This document shows, one piece after another, positions 27,801 through 43,030 of a DNA stretch of 43,169 nucleotides (the first letter of the stretch is position 1; every line of letters begins with the position of its first letter). This stretch comes from a virus. The stretch lies in the IMG/VR virus record IMGVR_UViG_3300025131_000092, positions 1 through 43,169 of that record, one strand, 5' to 3'. The notes beneath the pieces were generated by a model. It was given only the letters and a program-made list of their open reading frames with translations. It ran no database searches and was not told where the DNA came from. Position numbers and translations under genes: made by a program.

Positions 27801-30800
27801 GTCACTAAAGGCAGTTGCTAAACCAACAGTTACTGTCTTATCGCTATCATCATATGTAATGCTGTTGATGGGGATACCAGTAGAGTTATCTACAGGAATG
27901 ATTGTTGGTTGAACGTTGCTGATTCCTTTAGTATTTTTAAGAATCGTGACTTTGGTGTCACCAACTTCATAAGTTAAATCAACATCATCGATAATCTTTC
28001 CAGTGAGTCCATCAAGAACTACAAGATTTGGTGCGATAGTATAGTTCTTACCTGCAGAAGTAATACCAATTTCATCAAATACTACCAGAGGATCAACCAG
28101 AACAACTTCTGGCAGATTTAAGACAGGACGAAGAGTGTTGTCAGTAGGATAATCAAATCCAATGTCCTCAATAGTAGTCGATACGATCGATCCGATTTCA
28201 GTGCTGGATGGTTGTAAGATTGCTCCATCTCTAACTGGATTGGTAGATACTCCAACAATTGAAGATATACCAACGATGTAAGGATAACCAAATCCGTTGT
28301 TCTGGAATTCTATCTTGGAGATAGGGCCATAAGCAACACTAGAATCAGTCTCATAAGACAAAGTTGCATTAGAGGAAGTATAAGAAGCAATCTCAGGAAC
28401 TTGTTTGGTGTTGTATATAAACGTGTTTGTAGTCAGTCCTGCAATTCTATGAGTTCCAGAATACTTACTAGATTCAATTTTGATTAGATTATTGTTCAGA
28501 ACACTATCATCAACAACAATTTCTTTCTTGGTAGTAGGAATAAACTCTTCTACTACAGGAGTTGCTTTGTAATACAGTTTGGTAAGAACGTTGCTGTTGA
28601 TCTTTAATGTCAATGCAGCAGTTGTATCAACACCAACTCTACCAGTTTTCGTAACTTCAAAGGTATCAGAAGACTTACTTGTATCATACTCATAACTGAA
28701 GTCACTATCAGAATAAAGGTTAAAGTCAAATGCGGAATAGTTTACTCCAGAAACACTGAACGATAAAGAGGAGTCTGAAAGATCAAACTTAACAGTCTCA
28801 TTTGAGAAGACTGTTTTGTGAGGATTGATTGGAGAAATAGTTCCAGCAGATGCTGAAGTGATGCCTACAAAAGTAGGATCAACCTTAGTGACGTTATATG
28901 ATGTTGTTGCAAGTTTAATCTTATCATCAGTGAATGCAAAGACGTAATAGATCTTCTCATCCATCAATCCATCAGATGGTGTTGACGCAGTGTGAATTAC
29001 TTTATCACCAGTAACTAATCCGTGATCCGCAATGGTGATAGAGTTTTCTGCGGTGTCTACATTACCTGCAGTGAAATCTTTTGGATCGAATACAAATCTT
29101 CTATTGTGATCGTTATACTTGACAGAAACGCTTGTAGACACCCCAGAGATAGTGTTTACATAGACATTGTTACCCAGGGATAGTCCATGAGTTGATGCTG
29201 TAGAAACAGTAACAACATTCTTCTTGACACTAGCAGTTACAACATTATCTTTGTTAGTTGTAAAACTGTGTTGTTGTCCTGTGCCAATTCCAGTGAAGTA
29301 GAGAAGTCCGTCATTTGCAGTTGTAGTAGCAGCCCCAACAAAAGTTCCAGTGCTACCAAGTGAAATGGTTACTGTAGACAATCCAATACGATCCTTGGAG
29401 ATTCTAGCAACGTAAACTTTTTCTGGAATATCAAACTGATTAGAAGCACCGACAGTGGAAACTCCGATTGAAGAACCATCATACGAATTATATGTAAGGA
29501 TGTCTCCCGTATTCAGTTCATGGTTGGGAAGGAAGATTGCTCTTGTCTGTACAAACAGTTGAGTTTTTCCTGCTCCTGGATTAGAGAATGCCAGGGTAGT
29601 TCCAATACCAACGCCACTTTCATTTCCTAATGCTACTGCTTCGATAGGATTGAAATAAATTTCTTTATTCAGTTCAAACTTAACACTGGTTTCTTTCTCA
29701 CTAGTGGAGAATCTGAACTTTCTAGTTCTCTCTACTAATTGAGTCGTAGCAGTATGTGCAACAGATACTGTACCCTCCACAGATCTCTGAACTCTAACTC
29801 TAGAATTCAAAGCATCAACATTCAGAATTTTAATTCTTTCAGAACCAATATCATAAACATCATTTTCTCTGATGTTAAAGATGTTGGTAAGAATTTCGCC
29901 AGAAATACCAAAATAAGTTACGATTCCAGTAGCACCTGCAGTTCCAACTCCAGATGTTAATTTGAATAGAGAGGAAGTAATGCCAATAGCAAAAGATCCC
30001 TTCAGATAAGAACTAGAAGTGTTAATTCCTTCAATACTTACAATGTCAGCAGCAGAGAAAAGATTTGTTGCTGTAGAGAAAGCAACATACTGATTATCAG
30101 TGTCTAGTCTTAGTGGGATAATTTCAAGAGAATCAATGCTGCTTGATGCAACACTAACAGAATTAACTACTTTGCCACCAACTCTAGAAACTTTTGCAGA
30201 TGCAGGAGTTGTGGGATAATCATTAACAGTTTCAAATTCAATTTTGTCACCAACTTGATATCCATTTCCTCCAGTAACAATACCAATACTTTGAATCGTT
30301 CCTTTGCTGGTATTGTTAATGTTAATAGTTTGCCTTTTTACACTATCGGGTTGAAACAGATAGTTATAAGATGTGCCAGCAATATCAAGTTGATATGGAG
30401 AAGTGTTTCTGAGATACTCATAATTATTCAGATCAAAATTATCTTGATTGTTATCCTCAAAGTTAAATGAGTTTGGTTTAGAATAGTAGGTGTTACCAAT
30501 CAGATATGGGAACTCAGGTGATCTGAGTCCTTTGAAAGGCCCACTGCTATCAAGATTAGTGGGATCAATAGTTGCAAAATATGCATAAACTCCATTTGGA
30601 TAATCTGGGGTAATGCAGAAACGTCCATTATGTTCATCCAGATCTCCATTATCAAGGAAAACATAGTCATTAACAAAAAAACCATCAGTAAACAAATCAG
30701 GACGGTTTGCCAGATTTGTTTGCAGTTCATATCCAGATTTCATAGATCTGACTGATCCACCAGTAGGAGTGTCATATCCATATGGGCCATAGATTGGATT

Positions 30801-33800
30801 TCCATCATATGCCCAACCAATGATTGGTGAGTGATATTCAGATTCAATTTCTAAGTTGTTTAATCTGATAAGATCAGCAGTTCCATATCTAATTGCGTTT
30901 TCTTGAGACTTAGAAAAAACAGATTCTCTAATACTTCTTGGTGCATAAATGTGAGAATATTGAATTCCATAATTTTCATTTTGAGATAAACTCAAAATTC
31001 CGTCATCATCTGTCAACTTATCAAAATATTTTTGGAATAAGTTAATGTTCCACTTTTGTAAGTTAGAACTAAATCGTGCTCCAGATCCTGCAGGAATAAT
31101 TGTAATAGAGACATCATCTGTATAATCAGATCCAGAATTTTTTACGATTACTCTACTAATTTCTCCATTGTTCAAAACAGCAACTAATGTTGCATTTTTT
31201 CCAGAACCAGAAACAATCAGATCGGGAGGTGCATTATATCCACTTCCAGATTTGGTTACCAAAACTTCTTGAATTCTTCCATTACTTACAATAGGAAGAA
31301 GTTCTGCATTATGTCCACTAAAAACTGTTACCAGTGGTTGTCTATCAAAGTCAATGATATCGGAGGATCCATAACCAACTCCATTATCAGTTACCTGAAC
31401 ACTTTCAATCGTTCCTCTGAATACAGGTTGAACATCCGCTTCAAAATTTTGTCCAGTGAAAGTAGAAACTCCAATCTTACCTTGAACAGATACAGAGATT
31501 GGTTCATAGTTGAATGTATGATTACCAGATCCTACGGAGTTAAGATTAATGTACTGAGTGGTATCATAGAATAATGACTTCACTGTTGTTCCAACTCCAA
31601 CAGAAGACAGGGCAAAGTTGTTCTCATCAACTACGGTGACATAATATGATGTATCTGCATTTAGTCCCAAAATTTGAGTGTCACTAAACGTATAACGAAC
31701 TAACTCTCCAGAAGTGTACTTATGATTTGGAATATTGATGTAATTGAGAGCAGTATTGATTCCAGATACACCTGCTGTTCTTTCTTTGCTTTCATAATTA
31801 GATCCTGGTTCTACTGCAGTGATATTAGAAATAACTCTTTTCTTTTCAACTGCTTCTAATCTATGAATACCCGTACCAATTGCAGTTAAATCTAAAGTGT
31901 TTGTATTTAAAACTGCATCATCTTTCGTTGGATGTAGAGATACTGTATGCGAATCAACAGTTCTTACATAATACTTTGCATCAGTTACAATTCCAACAAT
32001 TCCAGTCTGATTGTCTGTTCTATAAATGATTTGTTCGGAGTTTCTAAACTTGTGGAAAGTAGAGAATCCAATAGTATTAGAAGAGATACCAATAGTAACA
32101 GAATCCGCTGCATTAAATGATTCTACATGAGCAATCATATTGGTATTGATCTGTGCTACAGCACCAATACCATTACCACCAGAGATTGTAATAATGGGTT
32201 CCTCAACATAGTCAAATCCACCATTAATAACTTCAATTCTCTTGAGAGAACCTTTTACGTTACAGTCTCCAGTCGCACCTGTTCCAACACTATCATTAAT
32301 AACCAATGTGGGAGGATTGATTACATCGTATCCATCTCCCGAATTTGACACAATGATATCTTCAAGTCTTCCATAATAGACATAGTTTCCAGACTTATAA
32401 TTTAAAATTTCTACGCCATTAATTAAGATACCAGTTTTACCAGACTCAGTGATATATGTTCCACTTTCTTTAACTGGTTTAGAAATTCTCCTGAAAAGTT
32501 TCTGATGCTCAATGTCTTTGGCATAAAAATCAGCAGGAATTAGAGTATTTGAAGTTACAATTCCAGAAACAGATACATATTTTTCTCCCGAAAGATTTGC
32601 CTGACTGATTGATATCTTAAACTGATCACTGTCAATTCTTCTAATATAGTAAATTCCCTCAGATAAATTATCAAATCCACTGATAGTTTCTACTGATTCA
32701 CCTTCAACTGTTGATGTTGTTACATTTTTTTTATAGTAAACAGAATCTCCAGTAAAGTATCCATGGTTAGTAAAGGTAAATGTGTCTCCATCAAAAGAAC
32801 CACTTAAATCAACCTGCCTTGTGATTGGTTGTAGTGCATTTTTGGAATAATATGGAAGGGAAGAAGATGCAACCAATAAGTTACCATCAAAGTCTGCATA
32901 TGTATTAGAAACATCAGAGGTATAATTTTCAATATATCCAAACTTGGATACCGAAGAAGATTTTAAGTTTGGATTTGTCGTTACTCTCTGTACAGTAATG
33001 GTGTTACCAACAGGAATAACAGATCCAAAAGCTGCAGAAAAAGTTTTGGCGTTTAAAACACTATCAACATTTGCAAATAACTCAGTGTTTCCTGCAATAA
33101 CAACAACCCGAGTTCCTATTACAAAATTATGTGGTGCTAAACAGGTAATTCTGTAAGATTTATTACTATCATCAATTAGTTCAGTTGCATCAACACTAAA
33201 AGAGGGAGATATATTATAAATCCAACTGTAAGCAGCAGGACTACTAGTTGTAATACCAAGAGATTTAATTCTTGCTGTATCTCCATCAGCATAGTAATAA
33301 GTTTTGGGAGAATTAATTTCAACATCAGATAAAACTGATCCAATTCTCAAGTCAATTCTAGTTGTGGTTCCTACACCAACATATGCATATGAGGTGCAAT
33401 TGATTCTAATATCAGACTCTCTAGATGTGGTGCTTGTAACACCGTCAACTTTTAAGAACTGATTGATAGTCTTTTCAGTATAAGTTACAATACCAGATCC
33501 TACAACCAGTTCACCAGAATCTGGGAATCCGATAGTTGAATCTACATCAATTGTAGTTGCACCAATTGAAATTTCATTAACTGCTTTTGTTTTGGGATGA
33601 ACAGAAAAGTCTCCAAGAATACTTCCACTTCTATCAGTGTCCTTTGCATAACCAAAGTCAAGAGAAATTTTATAATAGTCTTTTCCACCAAGAAATAACT
33701 TTTCAACATCAGCAATAGTTGCAGATGCTCCTTCAATCCCATAATCTGCTCTTGCAATGCCAGTTGTTCCAATAGCAACATTTGTAAAATTATCTTGAAA

Positions 33801-34631
33801 TATTGTTTGATTTTTTAAATCTAAAGGAGTTCTAACTCCACTATCTAAATTAGTTCCTGTGGCGGAAATAAAATCAACTACAAGATCTTTGGTAACTCTA
33901 TATTGAGCATCAGATGGTTTGAAAAGAAACTCTTCTGGACGAATAACTTCTACAGTTTCTCCATAGAGAGCACCAAAAAGAATTTCAAATGCTCTATCAG
34001 TTCCTTTTGACTTATAGAAAGAACTTGACTCAGAAACAAACAGTTTTTCATTGAGATTAGTAAAAAGATCTCTTTGATCAAATCCAGGAATGAACTGTTT
34101 CTTAATCTTGAGTAAGAACTCATTTAATAATAACGCACTGAGATTGACAACTGTCGATCCAGAAATATGACTATCTTGTTGTGATTGTGTGAAAGTTAAC
34201 TTATCCGTTTTATCTAAGTTGTGATATGAAGTAACTCCACTAAATCCTCTGATACACCCAGTAAATGAATTGGGAGTCTTTTCTGTATAGAGAATGATCT
34301 CATCATCAATTTGAATCAGTCCATTTTTATCGGGGAACTGATACGTTCCAAGAACATTATTACTAAGATCAAATTCAATACTGATTGTATCGTCACCGAT
34401 ATCTAAAAATGCTGAAGTCTTAGTTGTATCAGTATTATTAGTTAAACTCTCCAGCTTAAGATATTGATCAATGTTGTTGAGTAAATCAACAGATGCTCCA
34501 GGATATTCTTGAGAAACATAATACTGTTTTAAAAACTCTCCAACCAGAGGAAAGTCATCCCTAACGTAAGATGGTAGTTGACTACTAACTACATCTTGAA
34601 TTTGAACTCTTTGAAGATCTGTAGATATCAT
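21900..34631 (-). CDS. Giant baseplate protein in the gp7 position, with YHYH domain (4243 aa)
   Basis: The largest gene in the window, 12.7 kb, between gp6 and gp8, so by position it is the equivalent of T4 gene 7 (wedge subunit, 1032 residues). The N-terminal 250 residues (IQDVVSSQLPSYVRDDFPLV, EFLKQYYVSQEYPGASVDLL, FEILFGALYGETVEVIRPEE) are the conserved part I recognise from cyanophage counterparts. Around residues 1265-1370 there is a YHYH-type domain (IIGWAYDGNPIYGPYGYD, later NGRFCITPDYPNGVYAYFAT). GxGY repeats (NSGDGYDVINPPTLVI, KSGSGYNAPPDLIVSG, YGGTGYTSAPTVII) and VGTT-rich beta modules fill the rest. It likely forms baseplate arms and peripheral spikes. The gp7 identity is inferred from synteny rather than from sequence. 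Confidence 0.82.
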   Translation of the reverse strand: MISTDLQRVQIQDVVSSQLPSYVRDDFPLVGEFLKQYYVSQEYPGASVDLLNNIDQYLKLESLTNNTDTTKTSAFLDIGDDTISIEFDLSNNVLGTYQFPDKNGLIQIDDEIILYTEKTPNSFTGCIRGFSGVTSYHNLDKTDKLTFTQSQQDSHISGSTVVNLSALLLNEFLLKIKKQFIPGFDQRDLFTNLNEKLFVSESSSFYKSKGTDRAFEILFGALYGETVEVIRPEEFLFKPSDAQYRVTKDLVVDFISATGTNLDSGVRTPLDLKNQTIFQDNFTNVAIGTTGIARADYGIEGASATIADVEKLFLGGKDYYKISLDFGYAKDTDRSGSILGDFSVHPKTKAVNEISIGATTIDVDSTIGFPDSGELVVGSGIVTYTEKTINQFLKVDGVTSTTSRESDIRINCTSYAYVGVGTTTRIDLRIGSVLSDVEINSPKTYYYADGDTARIKSLGITTSSPAAYSWIYNISPSFSVDATELIDDSNKSYRITCLAPHNFVIGTRVVVIAGNTELFANVDSVLNAKTFSAAFGSVIPVGNTITVQRVTTNPNLKSSSVSKFGYIENYTSDVSNTYADFDGNLLVASSSLPYYSKNALQPITRQVDLSGSFDGDTFTFTNHGYFTGDSVYYKKNVTTSTVEGESVETISGFDNLSEGIYYIRRIDSDQFKISISQANLSGEKYVSVSGIVTSNTLIPADFYAKDIEHQKLFRRISKPVKESGTYITESGKTGILINGVEILNYKSGNYVYYGRLEDIIVSNSGDGYDVINPPTLVINDSVGTGATGDCNVKGSLKRIEVINGGFDYVEEPIITISGGNGIGAVAQINTNMIAHVESFNAADSVTIGISSNTIGFSTFHKFRNSEQIIYRTDNQTGIVGIVTDAKYYVRTVDSHTVSLHPTKDDAVLNTNTLDLTAIGTGIHRLEAVEKKRVISNITAVEPGSNYESKERTAGVSGINTALNYINIPNHKYTSGELVRYTFSDTQILGLNADTSYYVTVVDENNFALSSVGVGTTVKSLFYDTTQYINLNSVGSGNHTFNYEPISVSVQGKIGVSTFTGQNFEADVQPVFRGTIESVQVTDNGVGYGSSDIIDFDRQPLVTVFSGHNAELLPIVSNGRIQEVLVTKSGSGYNAPPDLIVSGSGKNATLVAVLNNGEISRVIVKNSGSDYTDDVSITIIPAGSGARFSSNLQKWNINLFQKYFDKLTDDDGILSLSQNENYGIQYSHIYAPRSIRESVFSKSQENAIRYGTADLIRLNNLEIESEYHSPIIGWAYDGNPIYGPYGYDTPTGGSVRSMKSGYELQTNLANRPDLFTDGFFVNDYVFLDNGDLDEHNGRFCITPDYPNGVYAYFATIDPTNLDSSGPFKGLRSPEFPYLIGNTYYSKPNSFNFEDNNQDNFDLNNYEYLRNTSPYQLDIAGTSYNYLFQPDSVKRQTININNTSKGTIQSIGIVTGGNGYQVGDKIEFETVNDYPTTPASAKVSRVGGKVVNSVSVASSSIDSLEIIPLRLDTDNQYVAFSTATNLFSAADIVSIEGINTSSSYLKGSFAIGITSSLFKLTSGVGTAGATGIVTYFGISGEILTNIFNIRENDVYDIGSERIKILNVDALNSRVRVQRSVEGTVSVAHTATTQLVERTRKFRFSTSEKETSVKFELNKEIYFNPIEAVALGNESGVGIGTTLAFSNPGAGKTQLFVQTRAIFLPNHELNTGDILTYNSYDGSSIGVSTVGASNQFDIPEKVYVARISKDRIGLSTVTISLGSTGTFVGAATTTANDGLLYFTGIGTGQQHSFTTNKDNVVTASVKKNVVTVSTASTHGLSLGNNVYVNTISGVSTSVSVKYNDHNRRFVFDPKDFTAGNVDTAENSITIADHGLVTGDKVIHTASTPSDGLMDEKIYYVFAFTDDKIKLATTSYNVTKVDPTFVGITSASAGTISPINPHKTVFSNETVKFDLSDSSLSFSVSGVNYSAFDFNLYSDSDFSYEYDTSKSSDTFEVTKTGRVGVDTTAALTLKINSNVLTKLYYKATPVVEEFIPTTKKEIVVDDSVLNNNLIKIESSKYSGTHRIAGLTTNTFIYNTKQVPEIASYTSSNATLSYETDSSVAYGPISKIEFQNNGFGYPYIVGISSIVGVSTNPVRDGAILQPSSTEIGSIVSTTIEDIGFDYPTDNTLRPVLNLPEVVLVDPLVVFDEIGITSAGKNYTIAPNLVVLDGLTGKIIDDVDLTYEVGDTKVTILKNTKGISNVQPTIIPVDNSTGIPINSITYDDSDKTVTVGLATAFSDSAPLSVGDKILVEGVSVGVGTTGNGYNSSDYDYALFQLTDVNIPLGGSVGVVTYTMVDLLASGQIPGNFDVLNSSPRIIPEKDFPEFNAIIKKPTFLTGEVVTSGDKIGTVERWNAQVELLKINTKVDFQVGDKISGRTSKSQSIVKEVVNFNAQSRLDATSTVQKGWQKETGFLNFHTERIPDNNYYQQFSYSLKSKVSYETWNDAVSALAHPTGLLKFSDHVIETQDENFRGAFTKASGSTIDIITDVPAVIDVQCYSDFDLVTENALIIGTQTISDQIYFKSRILTDYFNSVGNRVLTIDDISPQFNNEPRVDRFSAIGKFSINQRVNKFFTFIKDRRFTDERQTMFVSVLQDGVRTFISQYGRVETSYDMGSFDFRTSGTEGELLFFPTKFSANNFNVSFVNIGLNNSITGVGSTSLGDVARIETFQKENFSSETNIVSIASTYRSAHLIVEINNDEGVFEYDELNLIHDGTDAELIEYNQLTSNNYSNFGTVGLGTYECDISGGNLNVSFTPNAGTACTTQVFGIFLPTAAGGGIGNTIAIGNPDEGIGLIDSHQTTIASSGTPGIHTIATYTHTADNDYQAAYYVVSIEDTTNSQYQVSEVVVVNDSSDVYVTEYGNVTTVTGIGTIGALRTSTNTHLQFTPPASTATQVRVFQMAIEQVTPADFGNAALRLNNGIIEASYGTYTGTSANVLRAFTLRHRESEIFRRDVDASDTDIISLSEDSLVVPDHFFVSGEEILYSYVEASTPIGIENTTFPGIGATDFLPTHGVPLYAIKVNDSTIKIASSAENALASVAVPVGIITAGVSTAHAFTARNQNTKCLIALDNMIQSPIVATATTTGITSTFFTTEDIMKVSGITSFFGGDLIQIDNEIMKINTIGIGTTNAILVDRGWMGTTVAIHTENAIVTKVNGSYNIVDNTINFYTAPQGPTPIGTTTNSPDERDFTGITTFSTFQGRTFLRSGSVGGSTKTYDNNYVFDDISDGFNATTKEFTLKSNGENVTGFSTNNATVLISNIFQGPTGQLTSNQDYTLSEGSGISTITFTGAATSLASDPNNATIPVGGIIVSVGSTAGFGYQPLVAAGGTSLVSSAGTITSVSIGNSGSGYRVGVQTVHVGIQTFSTGLPNITGIGTAQIENGHITGVAVTNGQVFYITRDVSNVGYTSITGITTITTSSAHELNVGDEVILSGIALTCEYAPAVAISTVDYNNTAGIMTVTTSSAHGLVTTGKSSFVILSGIGMTCDLDAGVGVHTYPRTTDPYYTGSPVTAVNSTTEFVIPVGVSTVPTFHKTGGFVIPAIRAPRTANFSTSGTDPAAGGTPVTKVIDSTSFVVNSGVSTRGHLYARGGTVTKPLDIVFDDPVSYSNISLTGGGGTQAKANIVVGQGSSVVQFEFKNNGYGYGVGDVLTVPIGGMTGIPTDTTKTFEEFQITIGAIESDSFSAWHFGELQVLDLIQDQFDGVKRSFTLKTASAPVTIRSAPGSNIVVQDTLLVFLNDILQVPGEGYTLDGGSTLTFTSAPKGADTDYTGDTCKILFYKGSGDVDVVFRDILETVKDGDTLQIKDQEKRLVTEVFATDSVDTNAYNGFGIDSNPDNIRRVDWCKQKADKIIDGQVVSKSRKEVEPLVFPTTFLIQPVGVSSGIAFVESVKTFFDNDKENNTEARTKKITLTSQDNIVGASATAVVSIAGTISEIVVSYGGTGYTSAPTVIIADPVGFAYSAPKTTFVNGSDIPVGLGTTATATATLTGDAVSAITVTRAGTAYTSATPPDVIIKVANSLSEDNTTDSYSGDFGSIVGVTSTSVGVASTGYTFDFFIPIDSALRDIDIVGTAVTVSGIQTGYYFVVNNSNVGSGVTSLYQDNTVLGVTTQFLDSVYEVAAVSTATTAVAGVGITYVRRVTVSVQDLGDITGIGLTEFYGNYSWGRIDLGTRVDAQAFNSYTLNGSAGISTSAVITRSSPLKFQNYL

Positions 34632-34732
34632 TTTACGTCAGTTAGTAGGAATATCCGCTGGAGGGGTTTGAAGAGGGCGTAGACGGGGTGCTAGAGGTGC
34701 TAGATACTGGCAGTTGTGTGATATGGCAATTA
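34632..34732 (-). other. Gap between gp6 and gp7-position gene with open +1 frame
   Basis: This 101-base gap contains no late promoter box. On the minus strand it is open in the +1 frame relative to gp6, from the CAAAAATAATAAT at the gp6 stop to a TAA at 34642-34644. It would add about 31 residues, including VSSTSSTPSTPSSNPSSGY, in keeping with the Ser/Thr-rich end of gp6. It may be a frameshift product, a decayed tail, or coincidence. Confidence 0.4.
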
Positions 34733-36814
34733 TTATTTTTGACACGAACAAGGTGCAGTATATGTTGTCCTAGTGGTGGTGGTTGATGTTGATGTTATAG
34801 TATTATTTACTGCAGTCGCCGAAACCGTTCCTGGTGGGCCTACAATTTCATTTGCCAAAAGAACTGGTCCGCGAACTAAAGAACCATTTGCAAAACTAGG
34901 ACTTACAATGTAGTTACTTCCCGAGATATCATTACCTGAAGAAATGTTATCTGGTTTTGATGTTACAGTTGTATATCTCATATCAAGTTGGATATACAAA
35001 TCTTGAAGTCCAATTACATCATTTGAATACGGAACTGCACTAACCTGAATAAGAGGGAATCCCTCATTCATTGTTGTACTAGTAATCATCAATGGACTTA
35101 ATTTTACTTCGCCTTTAATGTAATCAACCATTCCACAATTTGATTTTACAACTCTTGCTTGCGTTGGAGAATCAAGTTGAATTAAGTTGACAACTCCAGT
35201 TTGAAGATCACTGTTTGGGAAATCTGCAAGATAAACTGTACCAACAATACCACTTACACTAAATCCTGAAGATTTAATATTGTAACCGATCTGTCCACCA
35301 TGAGTTCCGTGTCCATGGTTTTTAATGTAAAATCTATTACCAAAACAGAGCTCGTATTCAGCAAAACTATTTAACACAGGCCTCAAATCCCTTCTCATCT
35401 CAACTGATGTGATGTTTGAGGTAATTGAATCTGCGCTGTCGTCGATAATTTTTAAGAACTTACTGTACTTAAATCTTGCACCAAACTTATTGACTTCTTC
35501 AGAATCAGCAAATCTTTCAATATTCCTTGTTACGACATCAGTAACAGATGATGCGGACTTTGCAATGTTACTGTTATAATATGCATTAACAGTTGGTTCA
35601 ACATAAAGATATTTCAAATCAATAATTTTTGGTATGATACCAGCAACAGAATATTTCTTAACGTCAGAAATTAAGTTCTGTTTGATACTAGATGATAAGA
35701 ATGCACCATTGATTGGTTTAATCGTAATAAAAACTTTTCCAAACTGTGGAGGATCTAACTCCTCTCCACCAAAAGCAGCAACAGATTCTGCTTCAGGATA
35801 GATTGTTGGAATGATTGCTTCATAATCAGATGCAGTTACTGCTCTATTTTGAGAAGCATAGATTCTGGTTGAATATTTTTTAATCGATGAGACACTCTCA
35901 ACTTCTTGTCCACCAAATGCAATTGTATTCACAGTAACTGGTGAGATACCACCAGTGATTGCAGTTGAAAATCGGAGATCCGCTGCATTTCTAGATGTGG
36001 TTAATTTACCAATAAAGCTAAATGTGCTGTTTCCATTGGCAAGTGGGCCATTTGTAACCAGATAAGATACTTCGATTGTAGATGGCGATTCTAATTTAAT
36101 GCCATATACACCATCACCGAAGATTAGTTCATATCGCTCGTCTTCGATCTCCTGCACCCAATACACGGGTGATGAAGGGGTAACATTGAACAAACTATCA
36201 GACTGAGTGTATTTCCTGCTAATTTGCGATCCAGAGGATGGTTTAACACTTACTCTAATAGTTGCAGTGTCAATATTTGCATTAGGTAAGATAAATCTCT
36301 GATTGGGATCAAATGAATCTACAGTAAAGGTAGTATTAATATATGTTCCTTGTACAATGGCAATATTATCGAAGTTTGCTACTTTATCATTAACTATAAC
36401 TGTAATATCATCTAAGACATTAAAAGTATAACTATTTCCGCCAAAAATCTCTGATGTTGCCATCGGGCCTTTGTTCAAAGTGATAACTTCTGGTTGCGAT
36501 GAAAGTCCAGAGGTATTAACAAAAAATGAAATATTTGCTTTCGATGCTCTTCTACTTCTTGGAACATATCCAATATTTCTTGCAAGTGATACAACATTCT
36601 CTCTTAATGTTGCACTATCAATGAATACCTCATTCGACAACATGTTAGCGTTGTATGAGGTTATATACGTATTATACGCTAAAACGTCAATAATTGTTGA
36701 TAGGTTAGATCCTTCAAAATCATAATCCGTAAAATTAGAATTAGATCTTAAATAATCTTTGATAGATGTTTTGATCTGATCAAAATCGAGATCAGAAAAG
36801 TTGACTAATGGCAT
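34733..36814 (-). CDS. 6: Baseplate wedge subunit gp6
   Basis: A 693-residue protein matching T4-like gp6, the wedge component that forms the inner baseplate ring. The N-terminus is diagnostic: VNFSDLDFDQIKTSIKDYLR, then GSNLSTIIDVLAYNTYITSY, NANMLSNEVFIDSATLRENV and SLARNIGYVPRSRRASKANI. Further on, TASDYEAIIPTIYPEAESVA belongs to the baseplate J-like part. Length is close to T4 gp6 (660 residues). The start overlaps the gp25 stop as TAATG. The C-terminus is Thr/Ser-rich and ends CSCQK; a different reading frame continues with a further Ser/Thr/Pro-rich tail in the 101-base gap before the next gene. Confidence 0.95.
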   Translation of the reverse strand: MPLVNFSDLDFDQIKTSIKDYLRSNSNFTDYDFEGSNLSTIIDVLAYNTYITSYNANMLSNEVFIDSATLRENVVSLARNIGYVPRSRRASKANISFFVNTSGLSSQPEVITLNKGPMATSEIFGGNSYTFNVLDDITVIVNDKVANFDNIAIVQGTYINTTFTVDSFDPNQRFILPNANIDTATIRVSVKPSSGSQISRKYTQSDSLFNVTPSSPVYWVQEIEDERYELIFGDGVYGIKLESPSTIEVSYLVTNGPLANGNSTFSFIGKLTTSRNAADLRFSTAITGGISPVTVNTIAFGGQEVESVSSIKKYSTRIYASQNRAVTASDYEAIIPTIYPEAESVAAFGGEELDPPQFGKVFITIKPINGAFLSSSIKQNLISDVKKYSVAGIIPKIIDLKYLYVEPTVNAYYNSNIAKSASSVTDVVTRNIERFADSEEVNKFGARFKYSKFLKIIDDSADSITSNITSVEMRRDLRPVLNSFAEYELCFGNRFYIKNHGHGTHGGQIGYNIKSSGFSVSGIVGTVYLADFPNSDLQTGVVNLIQLDSPTQARVVKSNCGMVDYIKGEVKLSPLMITSTTMNEGFPLIQVSAVPYSNDVIGLQDLYIQLDMRYTTVTSKPDNISSGNDISGSNYIVSPSFANGSLVRGPVLLANEIVGPPGTVSATAVNNTITSTSTTTTRTTYTAPCSCQK

Positions 36815-37904: not shown

Positions 37905-38055
37905 GGTTAATCTCCTTTAATTCAATAAGTTCTGGATTTAAATCTTCTCCCGAGAAAAAGCGTTCGGAATAAGTTTGTAAGATCTCAGCACATTCTTCAT
38001 GACTGAGATCTGTATGGATCAATCGTCCTTCATAAAGTACGTTAAAACGTCCCAT
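37843..38055 (-). CDS. Small conserved-looking protein (70 aa)
   Basis: A 70-residue protein starting MGRFNVLYEGRLIHTDLSHE and continuing ECAEILQTYSERFFSGEDLN, PELIELKEI. This part resembles a short cyanophage protein that I remember as ending soon after an E[LI]xEI segment. The last about 21 residues (after KEI) overlap the 44-residue gene in a different frame and may be a lost-stop extension. The start overlaps the glycosyltransferase stop as TGATG. Function unknown; it may act with the adjacent enzyme. Confidence 0.75.
   Translation of the reverse strand: MGRFNVLYEGRLIHTDLSHEECAEILQTYSERFFSGEDLNPELIELKEINHGNNEGRMLYSEYTEENSSR
37911..37917 (-). promoter_or_regulatory. Strong ribosome binding site for the 44-aa gene
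   Basis: AAGGAGA on the minus strand, 6 bases before the ATG at 37904. It is the best Shine-Dalgarno match noted in this part of the window and lies inside the C-terminal coding region of the 70-residue gene. Confidence 0.75.
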
Positions 38056-38822
38056 CAGATAATACGAGTTTTTTCATGTCCAACTCGAATCCGAGGATCA
38101 CACCAAATTTGATAACCTTCCTCAATAGCATCAAGACAGAATGAGACATCCTCACCACACATGTCCTGAACTTCACCAGATTCAAAGACTTGCATCTTAG
38201 GAGCAAACCAAGGATATGGGAGTTTCTCAAATACACCTTTCTTAATTAGTATCCAACCAAACCCACTGTAATCAACAGTGAAAGGTTTACGACGTTTCGT
38301 GATAGAATCGACATTTTCGTGATTCATCACTCCGCCATTCTTACGAAAATCATCTTCTTCTAACCAGTGTGCGACAGAAGTTGTGTGTCCATCTTCTGTG
38401 CAATACCACCCAGCAGCAATCTCCTTTTCTGTGCCGTCTGCAGAGATTGCCATATCACACAACTGCCAGAACTTGTTCGTGTCAAAAACAATGTCACTAT
38501 CAATCCACAGTTGGTAATCATATTCTAACTTGCCATCCCAAGGTACTTGATCACGTCCACGTAGTACATTTGCACCCAAACATTTACAACGTGCAAAGTT
38601 AACCATAGAAGAATAATCTTGACTAATCTGAATACTCATTCCATTCTGTACCATATCAAAGCACAGTTGTACAAAATTCTTCAGAAAAACAAAACTACAT
38701 CCACGTCCAGGTAAACAGAATACAATACTCTTACCGTTCATTCGTGCTTTAATTGCATTATAATCCCAATCCTCAGTCTTCTGCTTCGGTGGGACAGTCT
38801 TAACCGTAAATCCTTTTGCCAT
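38055..38822 (-). CDS. Glycosyltransferase-like protein (GT-A fold), 255 aa
   Basis: A 255-residue protein resembling family 2-type glycosyltransferases carried by T4-like cyanophages. Features are an N-terminal strand KSIVFCLPGRGCSFVFLKNF, the segment FARCKCLGANVLRGRDQVPW, a DxD-type metal/nucleotide-sugar motif in YQLWIDSDIVF (Asp108 and Asp110), SGFGWILIKKGVFEKL, the acidic GEDVSF (223-228) where the catalytic base often lies, and a terminal WCDPRIRVGHEKT with a possible metal-binding His249. It is preceded by a sigma70-type promoter and followed by a coupled 70-residue gene. The substrate is unknown; modification of virion or host surface sugars is possible. Confidence 0.82.
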   Translation of the reverse strand: MAKGFTVKTVPPKQKTEDWDYNAIKARMNGKSIVFCLPGRGCSFVFLKNFVQLCFDMVQNGMSIQISQDYSSMVNFARCKCLGANVLRGRDQVPWDGKLEYDYQLWIDSDIVFDTNKFWQLCDMAISADGTEKEIAAGWYCTEDGHTTSVAHWLEEDDFRKNGGVMNHENVDSITKRRKPFTVDYSGFGWILIKKGVFEKLPYPWFAPKMQVFESGEVQDMCGEDVSFCLDAIEEGYQIWCDPRIRVGHEKTRII

Positions 38823-39675: not shown

Positions 39676-39924
39676 TTAGAGTTCTTCAATCATTTCATTT
39701 AGTTCATCGATATCTAACTCTGGACTGTCGTACTTTGCGCCGTCAGGTGTTGCACTAGAGGCAAAACCCATACGCTCGACAAAATTAGGATAGGAATAAC
39801 ATTTACGTGCTTCTCTATACAAATACTCATCATTTCCTATCCACAGAGCAACATTCCAAGTTTCCCAATTTGTCCACCCATTATAGGTTTCATTTGTGAG
39901 ATTTGTCTGAAAAGTCGTTGTCAT
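39676..39924 (-). CDS. GWTNWETW-motif protein (82 aa)
   Basis: An 82-residue protein. After a variable N-terminus it has the motif YNGWTNWETWNVALWIGNDE followed by YLYREARKCY, a Trp-rich signature found in small proteins of many cyanophages and other aquatic viruses, as I recall it. The C-terminus (SPELDIDELNEMIEEL) is an acidic helix. It is transcribed from promoter repeat 1, whose -10 region is about 20 bases upstream of the ATG. The molecular function is unknown. Confidence 0.82.
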   Translation of the reverse strand: MTTTFQTNLTNETYNGWTNWETWNVALWIGNDEYLYREARKCYSYPNFVERMGFASSATPDGAKYDSPELDIDELNEMIEEL

Positions 39925-39943
39925 AGTGTTGTTTGAGTTGTGG

Positions 39944-39980
39944 TTATACTAGAGAGGACATTTGAGGGTAACTAACAATA
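39944..39980 (-). promoter_or_regulatory. Promoter-like repeat, copy 1
   Basis: Minus strand: TATTGTTAGTTACC, then CTCAAATGTCC, ending with TAGTATAAC about 20 bases before the ATG of the 82-residue gene. It belongs to a family of five near-identical intergenic elements in this segment. Confidence 0.75.
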
Positions 39981-40008
39981 ATACCCCTTAATACCCCTAG
40001 AGATTAGG

Positions 40009-40212
40009 TTATATCTTGTTGATTAAATCATCAAGTTGCTCATCACCGTGCATTTCTTTTATCTCCTCTAGTAGTTCACCTTCATTATAATCTTCTAGGT
40101 TCTCGTAGATAGTATCAAATACAAATTCATCCATAGTTTTGTAATCCATGCACTCAGTATTGAGTCTTGCATATTCTCTTTTTAACTGGTCTAATTGTGT
40201 GTTAGTTAGCAT
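40009..40212 (-). CDS. Acidic small protein (67 aa)
   Basis: A 67-residue acidic protein starting MLTNTQLDQLKREYARLNTE, then MDEFVFDTIYENLEDYNEGE and LLEEIKEMHGDEQLDDLINK. It is predicted to be nearly all helix, with strongly negative charge, a trait of phage early proteins that mimic nucleic acid or block host enzymes, though no family is recognised. It follows the 51-residue gene by 38 bases and precedes promoter repeat 1. Confidence 0.7.
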   Translation of the reverse strand: MLTNTQLDQLKREYARLNTECMDYKTMDEFVFDTIYENLEDYNEGELLEEIKEMHGDEQLDDLINKI

Positions 40213-40250
40213 TAGTTTGCAGATACAATACGATAGTTACTGACAATCAA

Positions 40251-40406
40251 TCAAACTGCAGACTGAGCGCTGATAGATGCATAATACTCAGCGCAGTCGT
40301 TGATATTTTCCTGCGTAAAGTCCTCCACGATAACATCTAGGATCTGAAGAATCTCAGCGCCAGTGTTGCCCTGCTGGAGCATACCGAGCGCAGTTGAATG
40401 AGTCAT
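40251..40406 (-). CDS. Small protein with GNTGAEIL motif (51 aa)
   Basis: A 51-residue frame: MTHSTALGMLQQGNTGAEIL then QILDVIVEDFTQENINDCAE. The motif QGNTG.EIL.ILD.I is one I recall in tiny cyanophage proteins, and the 37-residue gene at 39469-39582 is a shorter paralogue. The gene is preceded by promoter repeat 2 and, further upstream, a sigma70-type promoter. Function unknown; predicted helical. Confidence 0.75.
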   Translation of the reverse strand: MTHSTALGMLQQGNTGAEILQILDVIVEDFTQENINDCAEYYASISAQSAV

Positions 40407-40423
40407 ATTTTGAAGTAGTGCTT

Positions 40424-40458
40424 ACATTATAGAAGACATTTGAAGGTAACTAACAATA
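40424..40458 (-). promoter_or_regulatory. Promoter-like repeat, copy 2
   Basis: Minus strand: TATTGTTAGTTACC, then TTCAAATGTCTTC, then TATAAT. The start of the 51-residue gene is about 20 bases further on. Member of the five-copy family. Confidence 0.78.
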
Positions 40459-40482
40459 TTGCCACTGTGAATTTACTCTAAT

Positions 40483-40511
40483 ATTATACCATAAGATTGT
40501 CTATCAGTCAA
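40483..40511 (-). promoter_or_regulatory. Sigma70-type promoter upstream of copy 2
   Basis: The minus strand has TTGACT (40506-40511), a 17-base spacer and TATAAT (40483-40488), a near-consensus host-type promoter. It lies just upstream of promoter repeat 2, giving a tandem arrangement before the 51-residue gene. Confidence 0.75.
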
Positions 40512-40684
40512 CGCAAATCCTGTCAGAATTTCTATACGGGGGCCCTTGACATTTTAGCGCGAGTGTGATAGCCTGCGCGCCAAGATCACTACGCCACAGA
40601 AGATTTATAAGCACCTTATTTGTATGCTTATCTAATACTTTAAACAGACACTTATGAGCACCTTGGAGCATACTTATCTGACAG

Positions 40685-40728
40685 TTTTCCACACCTTTAT
40701 AACACTTTTCCACATACATTGTGGATAA
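40685..40728. other. Cluster of three DnaA-box-like 9-mers
   Basis: Plus strand TTTTCCACA at 40685-40693 and 40706-40714, and TTATCCACA on the minus strand at 40720-40728. TTATCCACA is the classical bacterial DnaA box, and TTTTCCACA is, from memory, the form described in Synechococcus. The first two are exactly 21 bases apart, about two helical turns. Confidence 0.6.
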
Positions 40729-40748
40729 CGTATAAACAACACATATAC

Positions 40749-40769
40749 ATTAAAAAAACCTTTTTTAAT
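40749..40769. repeat. AT-rich perfect palindrome next to the DnaA-box cluster
   Basis: ATTAAAAAA and TTTTTTAAT form a perfect 9-bp inverted repeat around ACC. It lies 20 bases from the nearest DnaA-like box. It could be an unwinding element, a protein-binding site, or a weak bidirectional terminator. Confidence 0.6.
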
Positions 40770-40825
40770 TGATTTTTTGCATAATCTTTATGTATATAAG
40801 GCAAAAACGCTCGTAAAGTAGGCAT

Positions 40826-40853
40826 AAAAAGAGAGGGAATAAAACCCCTCTCT
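40826..40853 (-). terminator. Intrinsic terminator after the membrane protein gene
   Basis: AGAGAGGG and CCCTCTCT form a perfect 8-bp stem with an 8-base loop; on the minus strand the stem is followed directly by TTTTT. It lies 55 bases downstream of the 71-residue gene and should end the unit begun at promoter repeat 3. Confidence 0.85.
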
Positions 40854-40907
40854 ATGTGTTACTTAGTATCATGAATATACAAAGAAGATAGTATTCATTA
40901 ATCATAT

Positions 40908-41123
40908 CTATAGTGCTAATTTAGATGATGAAATGATTAATAAAAATCCTAACATTACCACAACATCCCATGATTTTGTTCTTATAAAATATGGAATTGA
41001 AATAGCATCAGCAACAAATTGCATTAGGACTCCCATTGTTATGTTAATATGTAAGATAACAAAATAAGCACTAACTACCAGGAATGATCCGATAATCCTA
41101 CCCATAATGTCAACATGTTTCAT
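40908..41123 (-). CDS. Two-helix membrane protein (71 aa)
   Basis: A 71-residue protein starting MKHVDIMGRIIGSFLVVSAY. Two hydrophobic stretches (about residues 9-27, IIGSFLVVSAYFVILHINI, and 53-67, VVVMLGFLLIISSSK) are probable transmembrane helices; between them is the conserved-looking FVADAISIPYFIRTKSWD. A protein of this pattern occurs in T4-like cyanophages, to my recollection. A TATAAT box lies about 15 bases upstream without a clear -35. A strong terminator follows. Function unknown. Confidence 0.82.
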   Translation of the reverse strand: MKHVDIMGRIIGSFLVVSAYFVILHINITMGVLMQFVADAISIPYFIRTKSWDVVVMLGFLLIISSSKLAL

Positions 41124-41134
41124 AAGTGTCTGTA

Positions 41135-41446
41135 TTATAACATCATTCCAGAAAAGAATGGAGTATCAATAGATCTAAAAAACCATTTAAAGTTCTTTTG
41201 AAATACACAATCACCACCACTTCCATTCTCTGCTAGTATAGCATTAAGACGTGATTTAGTAGTGTTTGATTGCCAACCACCATCAAATAGTTGAATGAAT
41301 GTATCACCAATGATTGCAATTAAGTTGCCATGAAGATAAACATTTGAGGTATCATCTTCCTCATTAAATTGAACTGTTGTATTTGAATTAGACCAGTTCT
41401 TTGAGAGGCGAATTGCTGCATTCATTTGGCGTTCAATCTTTCGCAT
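41135..41446 (-). CDS. Conserved protein with VYLHGNLIA and VFQKNFKWF motifs (103 aa)
   Basis: A 103-residue protein found in T4-like cyanophages and, as I recall, in some other bacteriophages. Signature segments are MRKIERQMNAAIRLSKNWSN, SNVYLHGNLIAIIGDTFIQL, WQSNTTKSRLNAILAENGSG, and VFQKNFKWFF. It is predicted to be a helix followed by a beta-sheet. The gene follows promoter repeat 3 and ends 12 bases before the membrane protein gene, with which it forms a two-gene unit. The role is unknown. Confidence 0.88.
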   Translation of the reverse strand: MRKIERQMNAAIRLSKNWSNSNTTVQFNEEDDTSNVYLHGNLIAIIGDTFIQLFDGGWQSNTTKSRLNAILAENGSGGDCVFQKNFKWFFRSIDTPFFSGMML

Positions 41447-41467
41447 GGTACTGAAAAATGTGTGTGT

Positions 41468-41504
41468 TATACTAATGTGGACTTTTGGAGGTAACTAACA
41501 ATAT
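41468..41504 (-). promoter_or_regulatory. Promoter-like repeat, copy 3
   Basis: Minus strand: TATTGTTAGTTACC, then TCCAAAAGTCC, then TAGTATAAC about 22 bases before the ATG of the 103-residue gene. The repeat itself supplies the last codons and TAG stop (41495-41497) of the upstream 50-residue gene. Confidence 0.75.
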
Positions 41505-41647
41505 AAGGCGAGAAGAGAAAGCATTTTACTCATCATAGATTCATAGATATCAGACTCTTCATCAGATTCAATGTGATCCTGATATTCACTCAATGCTTGA
41601 TCAATCATCATTAATTCAGCATCAGTGAAGTTTATTTTGTTTATCAT
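41495..41647 (-). CDS. Small acidic protein (50 aa)
   Basis: I choose the ATG at 41647, giving MINKINFTDAELMMIDQALS, then EYQDHIESDEESDIYESMMS. The frame is open further upstream to 41713 but that would overlap the previous gene by 50 bases. It is predicted to be two acidic helices. The last residues (YC) and stop lie within promoter repeat 3. It is the second gene of the unit started by repeat 4. Function unknown. Confidence 0.68.
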   Translation of the reverse strand: MINKINFTDAELMMIDQALSEYQDHIESDEESDIYESMMSKMLSLLALYC

Positions 41648-41660
41648 AGTTTGTTGAGTT

Positions 41661-41819
41661 TTAATGTCTGTCTGAGATATTCCAAGTACCGTAACCTTTG
41701 AATGCATTACCATACTTCAATCGTGCCTCTCTTTCACACTTCTCCTGTGCAATAGCATCAGCAGCAATTTGTGCTAGAAAATCATTACTCGCATGGATTC
41801 CGTTTCCGTAGTGTCTCAT
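41661..41819 (-). CDS. Small protein (52 aa)
   Basis: Starts at the ATG at 41819 (MRHYGNGIHASNDFLAQIAA, then DAIAQEKCEREARLKYGNAF). The frame is open from an earlier ATG at 41843, but that codon is part of the TATAAT/ATG edge of promoter repeat 4, so it would lie at or before the transcription start; the internal Met gives a leader of about 20 bases like the other units. It has a Glu/Arg/Lys helix and a Gly/Tyr-rich end (GYGTWNISDRH). No family is recognised. Confidence 0.7.
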   Translation of the reverse strand: MRHYGNGIHASNDFLAQIAADAIAQEKCEREARLKYGNAFKGYGTWNISDRH

Positions 41820-41841
41820 ATTGTTCTTTGAATTTGTGTTC

Positions 41842-41876
41842 ATATTATAGGGGACATTTGGGGGTAACTAACAATA
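41842..41876 (-). promoter_or_regulatory. Promoter-like repeat, copy 4
   Basis: Minus strand: TATTGTTAGTTACC, then CCCAAATGTCCCC, then TATAATATG. It has the best -10 box of the family and starts immediately after the stop of the 60-residue gene. Confidence 0.8.
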
Positions 41877-41877
41877 A

Positions 41878-42060
41878 CTACAAATTTTTCTCCATTAATT
41901 TACAGTGAATGTCATAAGTTGTATAGTTTCTAATATCTCTTTCATATGCATCTAGTTTATCACCATTCCTCTCAATTGAGTCCCTAAGTTTACATAACCG
42001 CTCTGCCATTATTTCTTTGATTACATCAAACTCGTGTTGCTCCAATGTTAGTTTCTTCAT
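41878..42060 (-). CDS. Small helical protein (60 aa)
   Basis: A 60-residue protein starting MKKLTLEQHEFDVIKEIMAE, then RLCKLRDSIERNGDKLDAYE, ending with IHCKLMEKNL. It is predicted to be two long helices and highly charged, and could be a small helical regulatory protein; no family is recognised. It lies 21 bases after the 81-residue gene and is the last gene of the unit that begins at promoter repeat 5. Confidence 0.75.
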   Translation of the reverse strand: MKKLTLEQHEFDVIKEIMAERLCKLRDSIERNGDKLDAYERDIRNYTTYDIHCKLMEKNL

Positions 42061-42081
42061 GATGATTGTGTTTGTTGTTGT

Positions 42082-42327
42082 TTAAGATTTATGACTAAGT
42101 TGATCATCTATACTATCTTGAATTGTAGTGTAAATCCAATCAGTATATACTACATTATGCAACACATCTTCAACTATCTTATTATCTTCAATCTCAACTT
42201 CATTTCCGTTAACATCATATTGTACTACATCTTCTTTAGTATAGATGAATGCAGCAACTGGTGAATCTTCTCCTTGATCTTCAATTAGTTTGTCAATTCG
42301 TTGCTTGAGTTGTGATAGTGTTGTCAT
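42082..42327 (-). CDS. Small acidic protein (81 aa)
   Basis: I choose the ATG at 42327, giving MTTLSQLKQRIDKLIEDQGE and then DSPVAAFIYTKEDVVQYDVN; an in-frame ATG at 42348 is possible but would overlap the preceding gene. A helix is followed by beta strands and an acidic region (EVEIEDNKIVEDVLHNVVYT). The VAAFIYTKEDV pattern is reminiscent of small cyanophage early proteins. No function is known. Confidence 0.75.
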   Translation of the reverse strand: MTTLSQLKQRIDKLIEDQGEDSPVAAFIYTKEDVVQYDVNGNEVEIEDNKIVEDVLHNVVYTDWIYTTIQDSIDDQLSHKS

Positions 42328-42337
42328 GATGAGAGAA

Positions 42338-42514
42338 TTATGTAGCATAGGTTTGGTTGATTGTATCAGACTTAAATCGTCTGCATAACTTAAACAAGAG
42401 TTTTAAGTCATCACAAATCACATATCTGAAGGAAGATGATTCAATAATAAACTTGTCATCTTCAATCCAGATTTGTGGTAGTTTCTTCTTGTAGATTGGA
42501 AAATCAGTTGGCAT
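42338..42514 (-). CDS. Small protein (58 aa)
   Basis: A 58-residue frame starting MPTDFPIYKKKLPQIWIEDD and continuing KFIIESSSFRYVICDDLKLL, FKLCRRFKSD. It is predicted to be beta strands followed by a basic helix. The start overlaps the end of the 38-residue gene by 11 bases and the stop is 10 bases before the next gene, so translation is probably coupled. The protein-like composition supports a real gene. Family unknown. Confidence 0.7.
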   Translation of the reverse strand: MPTDFPIYKKKLPQIWIEDDKFIIESSSFRYVICDDLKLLFKLCRRFKSDTINQTYAT

Positions 42515-42620
42515 GATGATTAGGAATTAAGGTGATTTCTTTCCACTCATGAGGATAGATTTTGTTTGCTATCTGATCATGAAGTTTGAAAGCATTGATT
42601 ACTTTTCTTATCAGTTCCAT
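42504..42620 (-). CDS. Tiny protein (38 aa)
   Basis: Reads MELIRKVINAFKLHDQIANK then IYPHEWKEITLIPNHHAN. An AGGA lies 1 base before the ATG. An alternative frame starts upstream at 42651 (MIYNIRIEFRNGTDKK) and the two together could be one frameshifted gene; however, that upstream ATG is part of promoter repeat 5, which favours this start. First gene of the unit. Function unknown. Confidence 0.6.
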   Translation of the reverse strand: MELIRKVINAFKLHDQIANKIYPHEWKEITLIPNHHAN

Positions 42621-42649
42621 TCCTAAACTCAATGCGAATATTGTAAATC

Positions 42650-42684
42650 ATACTATAGAAGACGTTTGGAGGTTACTAACAATG
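42650..42684 (-). promoter_or_regulatory. Promoter-like repeat, copy 5
   Basis: Minus strand: CATTGTTAGTAACC, then TCCAAACGTCTTC, then TATAGTATG. It is the most divergent of the five copies and starts a few bases after the stop of the ArdA-like gene. Confidence 0.72.
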
Positions 42685-42688
42685 TCAC

Positions 42689-43030
42689 TTAAAAATGTCT
42701 TGAAAAGAAATGTGTTTGATCTTGAGATTCAATAGTAATATAATCGTGCCTTAATTCACAATCCCAAACCTCTTGCCAATCAATGTGACTAGTTAAGAAG
42801 TCAGGAATATCTGATTCTTCACTAAGATAACCCAAATCATCCATCAATTGCTCTGTAAATTGTGCCTCAACATCTATAGATGTGGGCATACTGCATACAT
42901 AAGCATCTTCCCATTGATCTACATTCTCAACACCCAACTCAGCAATATCTTCAAATAGTTTTTCATCAATGTCAGGAATGTCCTCCTTAATATACTCAAA
43001 AAACTCTTGCTGTTGTTGATCTCTAGTCAT
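42689..43030 (-). CDS. ArdA-like antirestriction protein, C-terminal domain only (113 aa)
   Basis: A 113-residue strongly acidic protein. Residues about 38-100 resemble the C-terminal part of ArdA antirestriction proteins, DNA mimics that block type I restriction enzymes: WEDAYVCSMPTSIDVEAQFT, then EQLMDDLGYLSEESDIPDFL and the HIDWQEVWDCELRHDYITIE stretch, which corresponds to ArdA IP..L..YIDYE.F.RDL. Full ArdA has about 165-170 residues, so the N-terminal domain is missing. The ATG overlaps the stop region of the upstream gene (ATGACTAG). Cyanophages carry similar short forms, as I recall. The antirestriction role is inferred. Confidence 0.7.
   Translation of the reverse strand: MTRDQQQQEFFEYIKEDIPDIDEKLFEDIAELGVENVDQWEDAYVCSMPTSIDVEAQFTEQLMDDLGYLSEESDIPDFLTSHIDWQEVWDCELRHDYITIESQDQTHFFSRHF

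Follow-up and report, generated by a model that had tools for sequence, protein, structure and literature searches.

The 43,169-base viral record IMGVR_UViG_3300025131_000092 (IMG/VR; the whole stretch is called the window here) carries five copies of an intergenic repeat in its region of small genes. The nearest named relatives of the window are T4-like cyanophages (Kyanoviridae), with SynMITS9220M01 the closest, and the repeats seem to be the window's block form of an early-gene promoter module of that family. Each copy would be read by a phage-specific factor, and transcription would start at or just after a TATA-like box at the end of the block. We give this reading a probability of roughly 0.7. 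Judged by sequence comparison, the repeats are a genuine, conserved and phage-specific promoter-like family, and the class they belong to is a variant of a cyanophage early-element theme whose block form is new. A literature search, which did not cover the Syn9/P-TIM40 start-site study, found no published motif matching the element.

A preliminary description of the window had reported five promoter-like elements, and all five are present where it placed them. A repeat search groups them as one 53-nucleotide (nt) family on the minus strand, which is the strand of the neighboring genes, and each stands before a small gene. Elements are numbered from the A of ATTGTTAG as position 1, with the block at positions 1-26, the TATA box at 27-32 and a purine at position 33. 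A 36-nt consensus matches five sites in the window at 28 or more positions, all of them on the minus strand, the best at 33; among 100 Markov-shuffled versions of the window the highest chance score was 25 of 36 and none reached 28, so a chance origin of the copies was rejected. The string GGTAACTAACAATA is exact in four of the five copies and has two mismatches in the remaining one. Assumed start codons lie 19-31 nt beyond the end of the box, where 20-31 had been given. As had been noticed, copy 3 gives the upstream gene its TAG stop codon (GTTAG, 41497-41495), and several elements in related contigs likewise provide the stop codon of the upstream gene. Copy 4 was said to fix the start of its gene at 41819, but it leaves that start unsettled because the element itself contains an in-frame ATG at 41843.

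The preliminary description also proposed a search in related cyanophages, and a search of such phages and of viral contigs reveals a conserved family, found in one small-gene region and on one strand. An exact-pattern scan of IMG/VR returned 41 stretches with up to seven copies each, which yield 66 distinct elements of the window type. Most block positions are invariant in this set, partly by construction, as the search pattern demanded them; the TATA box, its spacing and a following RTRAnCA are also conserved, though they lay outside the pattern. Further scans returned 110 SynMITS-type, 58 S-SM2-type and 6 P-TIM68-type stretches, for a total of 433 distinct block-class elements from marine viral contigs and named Kyanoviridae. 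The block-to-box spacing is constant in 411 of the 433, across four sequence versions. The core pattern matches 4 times in 257 Gb of prokaryote genomes, where about 30 would be expected by chance by our own estimate, and none of the cyanobacterial genomes within that set contains it. On these counts, a promoter borrowed from the host was rejected.

Recurring 30-mers were sought in the small-gene region upstream of gp25 in named phages, and a repeated element was recovered in every phage examined. The window, SynMITS9220M01, S-SM2, S-B43 and P-TIM68 have a 26-nt block followed by TATAGT, with lineage-specific 5' halves. The versions are AATRTTACTCACCTCTAAAGTGTYYCTATAGT in SynMITS9220M01 (12 copies), AAGGGGGGTCGCCTAAAGCGTCCCTATAGT in S-SM2 (12 copies), ATGTTAGTTACCTCTAAATTGACnTnTTAATGTAA in P-TIM68 (13 copies) and AATTACTCACCTCCAAAGGTCCGCTATAGT in S-B43 (2 copies). 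Searches of the whole records of SynMITS9220M01, S-SM2 and P-TIM68, whose genomes are 190-197 kb, place every copy in one 9-16 kb region and on the coding strand. The versions seldom match across phages, and then weakly: four copies in SynMITS9220M01 fit the P-TIM68/window pattern with three mismatches, and there is one reverse-strand match in P-SSM2. The window shows the features of this block class, namely a contiguous block, AAA at positions 17-19, constant spacing to a TA-n-T-R box, and one coding-strand copy per gene within a single region.

A second design is found in Syn9, P-TIM40, P-SSM2, P-HM2, Bellamy and S-SRM01, where an inverted repeat (TGTGnCA-N9-11-TGnCACA) stands before small genes, 3-8 per region. 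In P-SSM2, S-SRM01, P-TIM40 and P-HM2 a TATAAT-like hexamer mostly begins 52-55 nt downstream of the repeat start; in Syn9 and Bellamy a conserved TATTCT/TATTAT stretch follows the repeat at a comparable distance. The inverted repeat has no occurrence in the regions of the window and the other four block phages, and no region has both types, so that the Kyanoviridae examined divide cleanly into a block class and an inverted-repeat class. In a gp25 tree, P-SSM2 and S-SRM01, both of the inverted-repeat class, are sisters; otherwise the tree does not resolve how class relates to phylogeny. The P-HM2 region has genes on both strands.

The window's elements stand before the same orthologous small genes upstream of gp25 as the inverted-repeat elements do, including Kyano_Gp96 and other families. 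The Kyano_Gp96 gene has a block element in the window, SynMITS9220M01, S-SM2 and P-TIM68, and an inverted-repeat element in Syn9 and P-TIM40. These orthologous downstream genes suggest that the two element types are probably equivalent in function and that each probably acts as an early promoter. Doron and colleagues reportedly described, in 2016, a novel early regulatory element of Syn9 and P-TIM40, and the inverted repeat found here is probably that element. The Syn9/P-TIM40 elements and the window's are alike in being repeated before small genes of the same region, orthologous ones included, and they probably share a role in early transcription; they differ in that the inverted repeat lies about 52 nt upstream of the -10, whereas the window class has a contiguous block abutting the box.

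Where transcription starts was approached through the 433 distinct block-class elements, which are related copies, so that the p-values below overstate their independence. Position 33 is a purine in all 433 and position 32 a pyrimidine in 99.8%. The start codon of the gene lies directly behind the box, at offset +6 from the box start, in 168 genes and 41 of 101 gene families; it lies at +20 to +32 in 55 families, at +7 to +19 in 7, and further off in 21. Positions 33-35 read ATG in 175 elements (about 40%) and GTG in only 14, and positions 33 and 35 are strongly associated (p about 7e-38). The consensus of the elements without ATG is GTA, which ATG differs from at both variable bases, as if it had been selected. 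Of the 32 families that have a further in-frame start, 29 have the box ATG in the same frame (p about 2e-11). With position 33 as the start, leaders would have a median length of 17.5 nt, against 18 nt from the canonical start in a hand-picked list of inverted-repeat promoters (p 0.86); with position 39 as the start the median would be 11.5 nt, shorter than in that list (p 8e-6). A Shine-Dalgarno-like motif is present in 0 of 8 element-led SynMITS9220M01 genes with annotated starts versus 39 of 111 others. P-SSM2 has one apparent leaderless case at canonical distance, TATAAT-AGCAGT-ATG. Taken together, the placing of start codons, the leader lengths and the missing Shine-Dalgarno motifs favor a start directly after the box, most likely at the purine of position 33, which would mean that the box is not a sigma70 -10. 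The promoter-like regulatory family proposed by the preliminary description is thus upheld, while its reading of the TATAAT/TAGTAT box as an ordinary -10 has become doubtful.

In the mechanism we propose, a phage-specific factor would recognize the contiguous 26-nt block (ATTGTTAGTwACCyyCAAAnGTCynC) as a whole and recruit an RNA polymerase. TATAGT or its variant would then melt, and transcription would begin at or just behind the box; the mRNAs would either be leaderless, starting with AUG, or carry short leaders of about 15-20 nt. Each copy would serve a single small gene or a few genes in a row, so that the set would form a regulon of probable early host-takeover genes. That a single factor recognizes the entire block is suggested by its length, its lineage-specific 5' half and the unvarying spacing, and the idea of a dedicated factor, which had been raised from the block being longer than a sigma70 -35 region (as it is), remains sensible. 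As the versions differ between phages and the core pattern was not found in cyanobacterial genomes, a factor specified by the phage seems likelier than one from the host; to serve genes expressed first, it would need to be delivered with the virion. The factor itself is a conjecture. An extracytoplasmic function (ECF) sigma reading, suggested by CGTC near the -10, was dropped, as no AAC-type -35 lies at a suitable spacing.

Several results weigh against this mechanism. A phage-type RNA polymerase (PF00940) was not found in five related genomes, the window's own genome being incomplete; the positive control, P-SSP7, was recovered at E 2.7e-69. Sigma70 region 4 is above threshold in none of five relatives, with one sub-threshold match in Bellamy. 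A search for a trans-acting factor, defined as common to SynMITS9220M01 and S-SM2 and missing from Syn9 and the fetched inverted-repeat regions, gave a long and unfocused list because most genomes were compared only in part. At 6 nt upstream of position 33 there is no hexamer resembling a -10. The early timing of the window's element-led genes is probable by their elements' equivalence with those of Syn9/P-TIM40.

The most serious rival holds that these are ordinary host sigma70-type early promoters, with TATAGT as the -10, a start at the conserved CA (position 39), and the block as a constrained -35 and spacer. It fits the match of TATAGT/TATAAT to the -10 consensus, and C38 and A39 (C 57%, A 76%) are a typical start dinucleotide. 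One S-SRM01 promoter, TATACT-GTAAGC-A, also speaks for it and against our mechanism: it sits at the inverted-repeat distance, resembles the box region and fits an ordinary -10. The genes with a box ATG may then be translated from mRNA that reads through from upstream promoters, which is likely given the dense genes on the same strand. Read-through leaves unexplained why start codons fall precisely at +6 yet hardly ever at +7 to +19, and the rival also does not account for conservation of the whole block, for leaders that would be shorter than those of the inverted-repeat class, or for the SynMITS-type box consensus, which is TAGTAGT and not TATAGT. A scan for the sigma70 consensus called 21 sites versus 20.3 expected, with none of the five elements among them, so that a TTGACA-like -35 with a 16-18 nt spacer was recognized at none of the five copies. 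We regard this rival as possible but rather unlikely. A bolder form of our own proposal, which we consider doubtful, is an early promoter of block-class cyanophages that lacks a sigma70 -10 altogether and is served by a phage-delivered specificity factor or an unrecognised polymerase, which would read the lineage-specific 26-nt block and start at the purine behind TATAGT; about 40% of its mRNAs would be leaderless, and whole regulons would have been switched between the block and inverted-repeat systems.

The element might also act in RNA, as a leader, processing or translation signal that is transcribed between operon genes and cut or bound for translation of the next gene. Its place directly between stop and start codon, its single strand and the start codons it holds are what such a signal would predict. 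This is improbable, given that the lineage versions keep a fixed spacing with 5' halves that are unrelated, that the inverted-repeat counterpart carries a DNA-type -10 at a set distance, and that the ACCTCC of the block cannot serve as a Shine-Dalgarno sequence; an Rfam search had no match, which ruled out a known RNA family. We think it very improbable that the copies are mobile promoter cassettes or sites of recombination by which small genes are shuffled, an idea put forward for the promoter early stem-loops (PeSLs) of T4-type phages, with any promoter role secondary. Such cassettes would agree with the single copy per gene, which mostly begins at the preceding gene's stop codon, and with the setting among variable small genes. 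Yet of the three terminator-like sites in the region none is at an element, the copies have no stem-loop, constraint extends to single bases such as position 33 that would be meaningless for recombination, and orthologous genes retain an element even where its sequence type has changed.

Coordinates of the repeat copies, the genes that follow them and other features of the window
Feature	Position	Strand	Description
Element copy 1	39941-39979	minus	Positions 1-39 of the element; box TCTAGT 39953-39948; before gene 39924-39676
Element copy 2	40419-40457	minus	Box TATAAT 40431-40426; before gene 40406-40251
Element copy 3	41464-41502	minus	Box ATTAGT 41476-41471; before gene 41446-41135
Element copy 4	41837-41875	minus	Box TATAAT 41849-41844; in-frame ATG 41843-41841 directly behind box
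Element copy 5	42645-42683	minus	Box TATAGT 42657-42652; box ATG out of frame; before small gene starting 42620
Gene after copy 1	39676-39924	minus	DUF7249 (PF23907)
Gene after copy 2	40251-40406	minus	51 amino acids; no assigned function; homologue of an element-led SynMITS9220M01 gene
Gene after copy 3	41135-41446	minus	Kyano_Gp96 (PF23790)
Gene after copy 4	41661-41843	minus	phrog_10986; 60 amino acids from 41843, 52 from 41819 (second in-frame ATG)
Gene after copy 5	42504-42620	minus	38 amino acids from ATG 42620; no assigned function
Protein beside copy 5	42689-43030	minus	113 amino acids; weak similarity to anti-restriction phage family phrog_36653 (E 0.0016)
Protein adjoining gp25	38055-38822	minus	255 amino acids; similar to phage glycosyltransferase family phrog_34859; kept in several Kyanoviridae
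Terminator-like hairpin	40830-40853	minus	Strong, with T run; in long non-coding stretch (about 40460-40905) upstream of copy 2
Long open frame	21900-34631	minus	4243 amino acids; position corresponds to gp7-like baseplate protein of SynMITS9220M01

Outside the window, two SynMITS9220M01 proteins (34369-35427 and 45937-46479) are about 90% identical to their S-SM2 counterparts, while most proteins shared by the two phages are far less alike. Neither turned up in Syn9 or the fetched inverted-repeat regions.

The layout of the block elements resembles the promoters of single-subunit RNA polymerases (T7-like, mitochondrial), which are contiguous and of fixed length, with TATA beside the start site and a lineage-specific upstream recognition half. 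The block elements are longer than a T7 promoter, and no such polymerase was found in five relatives. T4 middle promoters (MotA box and -10) are similar in that a phage-specific motif replaces the -35 upstream of a TATAAT-like box, but the window's block is far longer and reaches the box; cyanomyoviruses are reported to lack motA and asiA (PMC2984593, PMC5780444). Like the window's repeats, PeSLs are multi-copy early-promoter cassettes between small variable genes (Arbiol 2010 and Comeau 2014, as cited in PMC4503421). Multi-copy intergenic repeats are also found in the halovirus HF2, where they carry promoters and were tested as such with reporter genes (PMC8707807), although HF2 is an archaeal virus and its repeats are unrelated in sequence and polymerase.

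The way in which T4-like cyanophages activate their first genes in abundant marine cyanobacteria is not well understood; the T4 genes alt, modA/B, motA and asiA are reportedly missing from these phages. In the present case two unrelated promoter-like designs stand before the same genes, and the sequence versions of one design are largely exclusive to different phages, which points to a recognition partner that changes fast. In any cyanophage contig the elements flag candidates for early takeover genes, and their built-in start codons make a possibly non-canonical start mechanism directly testable.

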